The notes below the pieces were generated by a model. That model did no database searches and had not been told where the DNA came from. It was given only the letters and a program-made list of their open reading frames with translations. This document shows positions 32,008 to 49,400 of a stretch of DNA of 64,000 bases, in pieces. The stretch comes from Pseudophaeomoniella oleicola. Taxonomy: Eukaryota > Ascomycota > Eurotiomycetes > Phaeomoniellales > Phaeomoniellaceae. Made by a program: the position numbers and the translations under genes. Every line of letters starts with the position of its first letter. Position 1 is the stretch's first letter. The stretch is from positions 434,001 through 498,000 of the forward strand of contig QWDQ01000006.1 in NCBI GenBank assembly GCA_003868215.1, given 5' to 3'.

Positions 32008-33531
32008 TTAGTTCATCTGCTTGATCAAAGCGTTGATGTTCTCCTCACGGTTACCGACATCACCACCCTCAACGAAGTGCTTGAACTTTCTGGTGTGGAA
32101 GCCGCCAGTTGGGTTGGAAAGCTTGAACGGCCACAAGAAGTTGCTGGCCTGCTTGAAGTTGGGACCAACAGTGTAGATCTCGTGAATCAAATCCTCAATG
32201 CAGACAATGCCATATTTGCCAAGAGATTCCTCGATGATTTGGTTGTCAGTGAGGGCAATACGTTGCTTGTTGATCTTTCCATATCCACGTTTATAGATAA
32301 GCTCACGGACAGACTTCAAGTTGGGGTATCCATAGGCGACATATGGGTTGATGATGGTAAGCATCTCAGCGGTGGCCTTGGTGAGACGAATGAAGACGCC
32401 ATTGTTGATCTGGAGGAGACGGAGAAGCTGGAGAATCTTGCGGGGCTTAGGAGCAATCTTGTTGATACTGTATGCTGTGAGCAGGTAAGTCACAGGAAGA
32501 GAAGATGGATGCTTACCCCTTGATACGAACGACGAAGACCAACTTGGGCTCGGCATCAACATAGAAAGAACCTTCTCCTCTGCTCAGACGGTGCAGGCGG
32601 ATCTTCTCCTTCTCGGCATCACGGTACTCCTTAACGTAGGACTCAGCGCGCTTGAAGATGACACCACGCTTCTCCTTGTTGGCCTGCAAACAGCAAATTA
32701 GCTAATCGTCCTTATGCGCACCTCATGCAAAATAAAGATATTTATCCACCACAGCTCAGCCCCGAAAGATGGTTAACAAAGCGACAGCATCGACCCAAAA
32801 GGTCTAGCCGAAAAGGTTGGAAGTTGTCATCACGGTAGAAATAAAGGCGCTTATATTAGATGAGCACATACCTTCTTCTTCTGCTCGAGCTCAGCAATGC
32901 GAGCTTCACGAGCCTTCTCCTGACTCTTCCTCTTCTTCAGCAAGGTCTCTGGCATGAGGACCTGGTCTTGAGTCGGCACAGTTCTGTATTAATGAAAACA
33001 TGACAAGGTTAGCATAGTCCGAAGGATTTGTATGACAATCGTCGAGTAAGAATTGCAGCTTCAGCGCAGCATTCTTTTACCAGGTATAACACTCGACGAC
33101 ATATTTTTAATCGGTGAAGAGGTGATGGTTGAACACCGAGAGTCTCGGCCATCGATTCCTCATCCGACAAAGCCTTGAATAATATCAAGAGAGCCATCGC
33201 GACCGTTTACAGACCTTCCAGCCATCTCAGAAAGATGCCGATTGTGAAAGTAGTCGCGGCGTTGATTTTCAAAGTGAAGAAGCAACTCTTCAACTTCAAT
33301 GCCCCAAGAGCGACGGAGCCTTTTGGATCTTTCAATCCGAAGGCCGCCCTCATGCTGGGAATATCGAGCTGGTAAGCATTGAGCCCCAAAGAGGCAGCAA
33401 GCAAACCCAGCAAAATGTGCGGACTGTAACTGAACCTTCTCGTAATGCGTGGTAGGGAAGCTGTGAGATCCTTACGTTGATGTGGTTGGCACATCGACCT
33501 TGCGCTCGATCTTAGCCTTCTGGGAAACCAT
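32008..33531 (-). CDS. RPL7: 60S ribosomal protein L7 (uL30)
   Basis: Four exons: 33531-33476, 32983-32872, 32683-32517 and 32467-32008, giving 264 aa. Hallmarks are [95 protein letters not shown] and the end [14 protein letters not shown]. The protein binds 5S/25S rRNA regions in the large subunit. Intron 1 is long (33475-32984, 492 bp) and intron 2 (32871-32684) carries a C/D snoRNA. The start is the least certain part: the body from [11 protein letters not shown] on is unmistakable, but the first exon ([15 protein letters not shown]) makes the protein a little longer than the usual ~250 aa, so a different short first exon inside the 492-bp intron is possible. It is divergent from SNF8. Confidence 0.92.
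32756..32833 (-). ncRNA. C/D box snoRNA in RPL7 intron 2 (snR39/snR59-like), predicted LSU rRNA 2'-O-methylation guide
   Basis: On the minus strand, inside intron 2 of RPL7, there is a box C (GTGATGA, 32833-32827) and a box D (CTGA, 32759-32756), 78 nt end to end. The stretch just before box D (32773-32761) reads ACCATCTTTCGGG. It is perfectly complementary over 13 nt to the universally conserved LSU rRNA sequence CCCGAAAGAUGGU. By the box D+5 rule the methylated base is the G of CCCG, equivalent to yeast Gm805. Yeast RPL7A and RPL7B host snR39 and snR59, which target the same rRNA neighbourhood, so host gene and target agree. The terminal stem is weak: CTACC/GGTGG pair, but with a 5-nt offset. 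Confidence 0.85.
32984..33475 (-). other. Long first intron of RPL7
   Basis: 492 bp from GTAAGGAT to TAATACAG. I searched it by eye for box C/D pairs and found only a poor one (GGATGAGG near 33160 with CTGA near 33060), not enough to call. Long first introns are common in fungal ribosomal protein genes. Confidence 0.6.
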
Positions 33532-46445: not shown

Positions 46446-49400
46446 ACGGGACAATGCAAAATGGTGGAATGTATGACCATGAAAGCAATGTCTCATACAG
46501 GTGGTACACATGGTCGCAAACACTAGATTAGATCTGCGTGTTTCTTCGGAGATCTCGAGCATTCTCCTTGCCTTTCAACTGTTCATATTTCAATCCCCCA
46601 TAGCAGACTTTGGTACATAATAAGGAGAAAAAGGCCTGGCGCTTTTTTCGTCTTGTAGTACAGGTCTGGCAAGCTCGGATTGGGTATTTTATTTGTTTAA
46701 TATATAGATAGGTATTCTCCAATCTAGAATCAGTTTTGCTCATGTTTGCCATTTGAGTTGTGCGTTATGCCTTGTTCTTGTGATTGCGGACATGGGAAGT
46801 AGTGCCATACCATACTAGAGGGCTTGTAGTACTGTGGTTGCCATTAATTACCTACATTTGATATTACTGTAAATTCCGATTCAGCAAAATCTTGAGCGAC
46901 TAGAATATATTTCTCATCGCCCCAAATTAACCTCGGCTGTCATGGTCCCAAACTTAGGAGATCCGCTCCTAACATCTTCTGCCACTTATTTCTGTTTGCC
47001 TTTACGGGTTAACACCTTTGTTCAAGGTGCCTCATTCGAAACTGAGGGTCGTCTATTTGTACTCGTGCTGGGAACACACGACTGCTACAAGGCGTTAAGC
47101 AATGGAAGATACCTGTCTCGAGGAAAGATAATTTCGCAGAGCGACTTCCACCCTGAGTTGGCGGCGTGAGAATACATCGGTGCGAGGGTTTGGTGGTTGA
47201 GATGTTGTCTTACGGGGCGGATCGACTTTTTTGCTGTTTTGACTAGAAAGTACTTGTGTAGTTTTTTGAATTTCTTTTGTATGTTCTCTCTCACTTTGTG
47301 TGCACGTGGGGATGGTGGGGTGCATCACGACTAACTACAGCTGGCTCAAATGAATCATTTTCTAACTTCCCTCTCTTCATTACCTATTGATATTGTGTAT
47401 AGATGTAGGTAGCATTGTCCTATTGCGAAGTGATGTTTCTATTCTCACGCAAGTAGTCAAGGAGCCAGAATGCCATTCTTAACGAGCAACAGCAAAAGCT
47501 GGCTGGTGCTCTTTCTATCTACATGTAACCTTCCCCCCGTCCGGAAAATACGGCAGGAACTTGGGTAGAGAATATCATAAGATTGGAAGAAAGAGTTGGG
47601 GCGGGCAAAATTCGAATGGCACTTTTTATGAATACGAATGGAGGTGTCACTTCTCTCCTATCACAAGTCCTTGATATCCCTGATTTCTGAGCCAGTAATT
47701 TCTCTGTTGGGTGACTACTATCTTTATGTGCCCCCTGGAGGGTGCAGTATACAGTACCTATGGAAGAACGGTATTGGCCCTTTGACAGATAAGGCGCATC
47801 TAGGTAGGTTTAACCTACCTCTACTGTGCATCTATATGCAGTCTGTTACCCAAATACCCGCAGCCCAAGTTTCAGAGGGCGTGGTACGCTGACTGCCTAG
47901 AGGCTGTCCACGTATCCAAGAACCCCCCTGATTGCTCGCACGAAAGGATGATTGTTGATTTTGTACCTGAGACATGTGAGGTACACACATCTGCTCGGTC
48001 TCCTGGTCTTTCGGGTGCTCGGACGAATGGAGTCCGAAGGAAGAGGATAACTGGAAGAGTTCTTCGAGATGGAATGGCAATTGAGAGAGAGAGGCACACA
48101 CACATGGTCAGCCAATATCCTACAACCACCGGGTCATCTAATGCGGTTTAAGTGCACAAGGATGTTTTTTGGTATTGGGATGCTTCAACAAGCCATCACA
48201 TAGTACGATAGGTTATGACGTGTTGGTACCTTTATCTTTGTTGGGATTTTGATACTGTACCATAGTACATAGTACGCAATACGGGAAAACTGCGTCAAAG
48301 ATCGATTCAAAGCCGCCGCTGCGGCGTTGTGTCCGTAAGGCACACCAACTACTGTGCGACGACGTACGTTGTACTGCATAGTAGGGGCTATGTCTGCCAG
48401 TCACGAGCAAAAAGGTCATCAATAGTGGCGATCTGGCCGGGTACGAGGATCGGCGACCTGCCTCCTTGCTCAATAACTCGAGGAGATGGATTTGGTTGGA
48501 TATGGATCATGTCTTTTCGGCGGGTATATCTACCTAGGTACCTTATCGATGCTGTTACCACCTCGGGAGGAGGTGCTTGCTTACTGTGTGGTTTGGAGAC
48601 CTCTTCGGACATATGGAAAGCAAGACTTCACACAGCCAATCACTGCGAAGATTCGGCATTACTAATCGCACTGTGTCTTCTACGCACCTACTACGTAGTA
48701 AGTATAATTGAATTGCTGGGAAAGAAAGTGATATCCGAATATCCGGCCGGAGATTTGTGGTATCGCAGTATGGAGATGGGAAGTTATCATACTACGTAGT
48801 AGTCAAGCACCCACTCTTCCTTCTGCGGCCCCATGGAGAAGTGAACGGCTTAGTAGGTTTCAATCGGTCAATTGATACGGCTCCTACAGCGTCGCGGTTC
48901 AGGGGACGGCAGTTGCTCAGCAGGCGTGATATGTCAAGTGCCGTTAGGGGGGTTTGGGGGGTGTTACTAGGGATGTATGTACATAGTAAAAAGGACACGA
49001 GTTGTGTGCTCATGATTCATGGTGCATCTTCATTGACTATATCGGGCCAAGATTGATATTCATGGGGTTTGACTCCAATGGGAAGTGGTTACGTATCATT
49101 AGTCTAGGCATTCGTAGTAATTAGATGTTAGGGGCCGCTGTGGTTTGTTGATGAGACTCGAAGATTACCTTGCATAGCGGCCTGGAGATCCATTGACCCC
49201 GCCAATGATGCCATAACGCGGCCCTTCGGAAGCTTCGCCCCCTCCATCGAGGCATGTTTGACTTCCACTATCCCACTGATTCAGTACCCCGCCAATTCTA
49301 CCCGTCCTCGCCGTACAATAGAGATAGCTAAGGTACCTCTGGAAGGTAACTGAAGAACCACTCAGTAATTAAGTGCAGTACAGATATATGCAGCAGGGCA

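Follow-up and report, generated by a model that had tools for sequence, protein, structure and literature searches.

The window, by which we mean the whole 64-kb stretch of Pseudophaeomoniella oleicola DNA that was analysed, contains a four-exon gene for the ribosomal protein RPL7/uL30 on its minus strand, and the second intron of this gene carries an element resembling a box C/D snoRNA.

The RPL7 gene and its introns

The gene and the intron that contains the element were delimited as follows.

32008..33531, minus strand: RPL7/uL30, 264 aa, four exons (33531-33476, 32983-32872, 32683-32517, and 32467-32008), splice sites from sequence
32684..32871, minus strand: intron 2 of RPL7, 188 nt, GTATGT...CAG, phase 0 after codon 56 (KKK/ANKEKR)
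32701-32697, minus strand: branch-site-like CTAAT in intron 2, assigned by motif only

The reading frame of exon 4 matches the Pfam family Ribosomal_L30. Among the best 120 of 7759 matches to the spliced 264-aa protein, the named ones are mostly 60S ribosomal protein L7 from filamentous fungi (at most 89% identity), and two unnamed proteins are 94-95% identical. The nearest named genera are mainly Eurotiomycetes. Solved L7/uL30 chains also match the product (best E value 1.1e-135), and the assembly has one RPL7 locus, all three matches (3/3) being exons of this gene. The N terminus encoded by exon 33531-33476 (minus strand) is about 14 residues longer than that of protein P0002 (250 aa); the extension is common to P0001 (264 aa, 94% identity), the closest among the best 120 of 7759 matches. 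Intron 1 (32984-33475, minus strand) is long, with 492 nt versus 188 and 49 nt for introns 2 and 3, and an Rfam search of it returned no matches at E values up to 2.

The element lies wholly within intron 2, 38 nt past the 5' splice site and 72 nt ahead of the 3' splice site. Its location in an RPL7 intron, proposed in a preliminary description of this DNA, is confirmed by the Pfam match, the named L7 proteins, the solved chains, and the splice sites around the element. The snoRNAs snR39 (RPL7A) and snR59 (RPL7B) of Saccharomyces cerevisiae (RF01197) both occupy the second RPL7 intron, and the same position was found here. In the match to chain 3j6x (residues 25-264 to 4-244), codon 56 falls at residue 35 of the chain if there is no earlier gap. 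We take this chain to be the S. cerevisiae protein, in whose gene intron 2 presumably follows codon 35.

Boxes, guide, and spacing of the intronic element

Within intron 2 and its immediate surroundings, the following features were located.

32756..32833, minus strand: 78-nt element resembling a box C/D snoRNA, counted from box C through box D (not its mature ends)
32827..32833, minus strand: box C GTGATGA, read from sequence
32761..32773, minus strand: guide ACCATCTTTCGGG, 13 nt, complementary to LSU rRNA CCCGAAAGATGGT
32756..32759, minus strand: box D CTGA, read from sequence
32804..32807, minus strand: possible D' box CTAG, weak, aligning with CUAG in the Rfam consensus for snR39
32785..32791, minus strand: possible C' box GATGCTG, weak, aligning with AUGUUG in the Rfam consensus for snR39
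32785..32810, minus strand: predicted 26-nt hairpin with the possible D' and C' boxes as its internal loop (minimum-free-energy fold)
32834..32839, minus strand: possible external stem, 5' arm TCTACC (fold prediction)
32745..32750, minus strand: possible external stem, 3' arm GGTGGA, 5 nt past box D (fold prediction)

Box C, guide, and box D are all present, and together they span exactly the positions first given for the element. The two boxes have the forms RUGAUGA and CUGA and stand 67 nt apart, and a single G separates ACCATCTTTCGGG from box D. As the guide of a box C/D snoRNA, we accepted an rRNA complement of 10-21 nt immediately 5' of box D or D'. The reference for the LSU was a 48-nt stretch from fungal sequences printed in PMC12287172, and against this source (GGGACCCGAAAGATGGTGAAC) the complementarity claimed at the outset extends over 13 of 13 nucleotides, 1 nt from CTGA. 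The boxes, the guide, and their spacing, as well as the intron and the host gene, are directly observed.

The combination is hardly expected by chance in the window, where both strands together hold 11 RTGATGA-N35..71-CTGA pairs (still 11 with gaps up to 74). In one of these 11 pairs, a 13-nt complement to the 48-nt LSU stretch stands at most 2 nt from box D, versus 1.8e-5 expected; counting every 13-mer in about 5400 nt of rRNA raises the expectation to 2.7e-3. Both figures assume equal base frequencies. The guide 13-mer on its own is weak evidence, with 3 places on both strands of the 26-Mb genome and about 0.8 expected; the other two copies lack a CTGA after them. None of these three places is an rDNA copy, as judged by the flanks, and so the target rRNA segment is not in this assembly. 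The pattern CATCTTTCGGGNCTGA is exact at the present locus only (1 exact among 67 places with at most two mismatches; 29 places for the reversed control). Thirty of the 67 near-CATCTTTCGGGNCTGA places were checked. At one of them, L043 (C47:598523), both boxes are exact and the guide has a mismatch beside the target; because chance should give some 0.2-0.3 places of this sort among the 29 checked besides the present locus, it was set aside. This locus (1433-1516) includes GTGATGA, CTGA, the near-guide ACCATCTTTCTGG, and an internal CTGA; it may owe its motifs to chance or be a snoRNA for a different target.

Beyond this genome, the pattern TGATGA-N35..65-CCATCTTTCGGGNCTGA gave no stretches in viral_contigs and one in genome_contigs, on a Haloferacaceae archaeon MAG contig in which Rfam found no snoRNA at E values up to 1. 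This match was dismissed since about 0.9 such matches are expected by chance. The sequence ACCATCTTTCGGGGCTGA was likewise absent from viral_contigs, and an LSU-like 25-mer match there (L005), which Rfam did not identify as rRNA, was left out of the analysis.

Predicted target residue of the guide

The guide is complementary to the rRNA segment served by snR39, snR59, and snR39b, and counting five nucleotides back from CTGA leads to a C that stands opposite the G of CCCG, so both the segment and the D+5 arithmetic of the preliminary description are upheld. Since the SNORD2 consensus guide has the identical D+5 nucleotide, this G corresponds to yeast G805, if snR39b is the Gm805 guide. We consider it highly probable that RPL7 intron 2 encodes here a box C/D snoRNA that corresponds in position to yeast snR39/snR59 and guides 2'-O-methylation at the G of CCCG. 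Splicing and debranching of RPL7 intron 2 would release the snoRNA, which would bind the C/D proteins Snu13/15.5K, Nop56, Nop58, and fibrillarin. These proteins and this pathway of release from introns are general for the snoRNA class. ACCAUCUUUCGGG would pair with LSU rRNA CCCGAAAGAUGGU, and 2'-O-methylation would be directed by the D+5 rule to the G of CCCG (yeast Gm805). We infer the transcription and processing of this RNA, the methylation, and its exact site.

In yeast, several papers give Am807 to snR39/snR59 and Gm805 to snR39b (PMC5295604, PMC2806949, PMC5199042), and a like assignment in older numbering appears in PMC3511168. By D+5 the present element points to G805, where the yeast literature has A807 for snR39/snR59. 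By our reading of the columns in a table of PMC11542601, plants, human, and yeast all carry both methylations; the CLASH passage in PMC6171561 concerns snR39B-mRNA hybrids only. The discrepancy had been interpreted as a target shift or a merged role. While the element, the RPL7 intron, the guide segment, and the host-gene linkage in that interpretation all stand, the novelty of its last point does not: the Rfam snR39 consensus ACCAUCUUUCGGGGCUGA, which aligns with the element from end to end, has the identical guide spacing, with GGGG preceding CUGA as at the present locus. A Gm target is also listed for an intronic snoRNA of this kind in tables for Neurospora crassa and Trichophyton rubrum.

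The N. crassa snoRNA CD47 (75 nt) is likewise intronic with a D-box guide, and its listed yeast homolog is snR39b (PMC2780460). Its target is 26S-Gm785, its guide has 16 bp versus 13 nt here, and its table entry does not name the host gene. An asterisk places CD47 among the RNAs with an annotation in the N. crassa database that experiments did not detect, yet its expression column reads N, R; the printed table has no entry for Am787 (PMC2780460). The T. rubrum RNA TRnc_2265 (87 nt), which came from a small-RNA cDNA study, is also intronic, with an RF01197 snR39 call and a Gm target (PMC3890542). That target, 25S Gm808, is a Snoscan prediction, the host gene is not named in the entry, and the likeness to the present element is by description only (PMC3890542). 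A Gm site is thus the assignment published for two filamentous fungi, N. crassa and T. rubrum, in these tables.

A functional snoRNA of like kind that methylates A807 in vivo (the second A of CCCGAAAG) despite the D+5 rule is improbable. This explanation would agree with the yeast literature, in which snR39/snR59 serve the A site and snR39b serves the G site although the spacing of the snR39 consensus matches that found here, and also with the outcome of a narrow search (few patterns, part of the matches checked) that found no convincing separate A807 guide in the genome. However, it is the G and not the A that lies opposite the D+5 nucleotide, and the printed N. crassa and T. rubrum tables give Gm.

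In that search, the A807-guide pattern CATCTTTCGNCTGA had 40 genome places with at most one mismatch, of which 1 was exact (27 places for the reversed control); a check for a box C upstream covered 30 of these 40 places. At the sole exact place, L012 (C43:26142), the box C ATGATGC has one mismatch and 9-10 bp form with the rRNA, which is too weak to be claimed as a guide; the locus has no Rfam match at E values up to 5. Positions 1428-1514 of L012 hold a possible box C/D-like element with A807-type spacing CATCTTTCGCCTGA, apparently in an intron. Searches for TGATGA, a gap, and CATCTTTCG found 3 places (reversed control, 3) and 8 places (reversed control, 1), and among these 11 places only the present locus continues with GGG and CTGA.

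A broader proposal, which we regard as unlikely though less so than methylation of A807 by this element, is that in filamentous ascomycetes the RPL7-intron snoRNA guides the G805-type site with no dedicated A807 guide, targets having been exchanged relative to yeasts while the host intron stayed unchanged, or else that the A807 assignment of yeast snR39 is wrong. The latter is conceivable because the family consensus itself has G805 spacing. The residues exchanged under this proposal would be two nucleotides apart in the rRNA.

Covariance models and predicted fold

At gathering scores, Rfam leaves the locus unnamed. Under permissive limits, the snR39 model (RF01197) aligns with the locus from end to end (positions 1-95 of 95), with 84 nt here placed on the 95 model positions and a score of 21.9 bits, far below the gathering score of 40. 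A scan of the whole 26-Mb genome with this model at E values up to 10, which carried 55 of its 4202 first-look candidates on to scoring, returned one match, the present locus. Sub-threshold RF01197 matches occur in 8 of 14 control genomes. Because these controls also match below the cut-off, the snR39 scores are uninformative, and the location of the match is informative.

The SNORD2/snR39b model (RF01299) does not pick out the locus. It scored 22.5 bits against a cut-off of 37 over positions 12-63 of 69, with an alignment that runs beyond box D, and in the genome scan (E values up to 10) the present locus ranked third of five matches; 12 of the 14 controls had matches as well. The element shares the guide words and the D+5 site with this Gm805 guide family, and the 22.5 bits arise around the guide only. 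In the RF01299 model, the guide is internal and is followed by more sequence and a second CUGA, unlike the arrangement here. Elsewhere in the window, a fungal signal recognition particle RNA lies at 46935-47232 on the plus strand (RF01502, 105.2 bits, full length); nothing else in the 64-kb window reaches a gathering score in Rfam.

The segment from box C to the guide was also compared with the snR39 consensus, and 167 of 2000 shuffles (global alignment) and 105 of 2000 (local alignment) reached the observed score. By this sequence comparison, likeness to the consensus outside the boxes and guide is not significant; CTAG and ATGNTG nonetheless line up in the snR39 alignment. Given the low scores and the non-significant inner similarity, we file the element as a box C/D snoRNA that is a positional and guide counterpart of snR39/snR59, and leave it outside the Rfam family. 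The predicted external stem TCTACC/GGTGGA comprises 6 bp, and the overall fold is no better than that of shuffled sequences, 145 of 200 and 127 of 200 of which fold at least equally well. Although the weak covariance scores and the missing fold signal are what a chance set of motifs or the relic of a dead snoRNA in an ordinary intron might give, such an origin is very improbable for a guide, two boxes, and a spacing that are intact inside an RPL7 intron, with 1.8e-5 expected in the window.

A possible regulatory element in the RPL7 intron

Equally improbable, in our estimate, is the reading that this part of the intron controls RPL7 splicing and is not a guide RNA. Its appeal lies in a motif of about 30 nt, named "rpl7", that was proposed as a splicing regulator in fungal L7 introns (PMC5640933). 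That paper describes 22 examples from 17 species, every one in an L7 intron, with conserved nucleotides round a central loop, and its RT-PCR sizes for Aspergillus nidulans imply an L7 intron of 184 nt (437-253), similar to the 188 nt found here. An autoregulatory structure is also described for yeast RPL7B; it lies in intron 1, however, while the yeast snoRNA lies in the second intron. Splicing control would leave boxes C and D and the rRNA guide unexplained. Furthermore, the predicted fold suggests, purely as an idea, that the published, unexplained rpl7 motif may be part of the present snoRNA and correspond to its inner hairpin (32810-32785).

Conservation of the snoRNA in RPL7 introns

With the intronic methylation-guide snoRNA as the preferred explanation, the linkage of element and host gene can be placed in a wider context. 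The suggestion of a host-gene linkage kept across ascomycetes is supported, and its conservation in fungi had already been published (PMC2246297, 2007; PMC8476143, 2021). According to the latter study, the RPL7 intron position is kept in 82% of fungal species, and its figure 7 shows a box C/D snoRNA in the RPL7 intron of its eight intron-poor species. In Fusarium graminearum, a putative intronic SnR39 is reported to drop on deletion of the debranching-enzyme gene (PMC9606315). An ortholog of snR39/snR59 was, as reported, not found in three species of the Candida parapsilosis group (PMC5033589), so the RPL7 linkage is not universal.

The element of P. oleicola would be an ordinary intronic methylation-guide snoRNA, new as an instance only. 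Its spacing is of modest use, in that the family consensus and the tables for two filamentous fungi say Gm where the yeast papers say Am807. It would add another fungus to a known case, that of a snoRNA kept in one intron of a ribosomal-protein gene over long fungal evolution.
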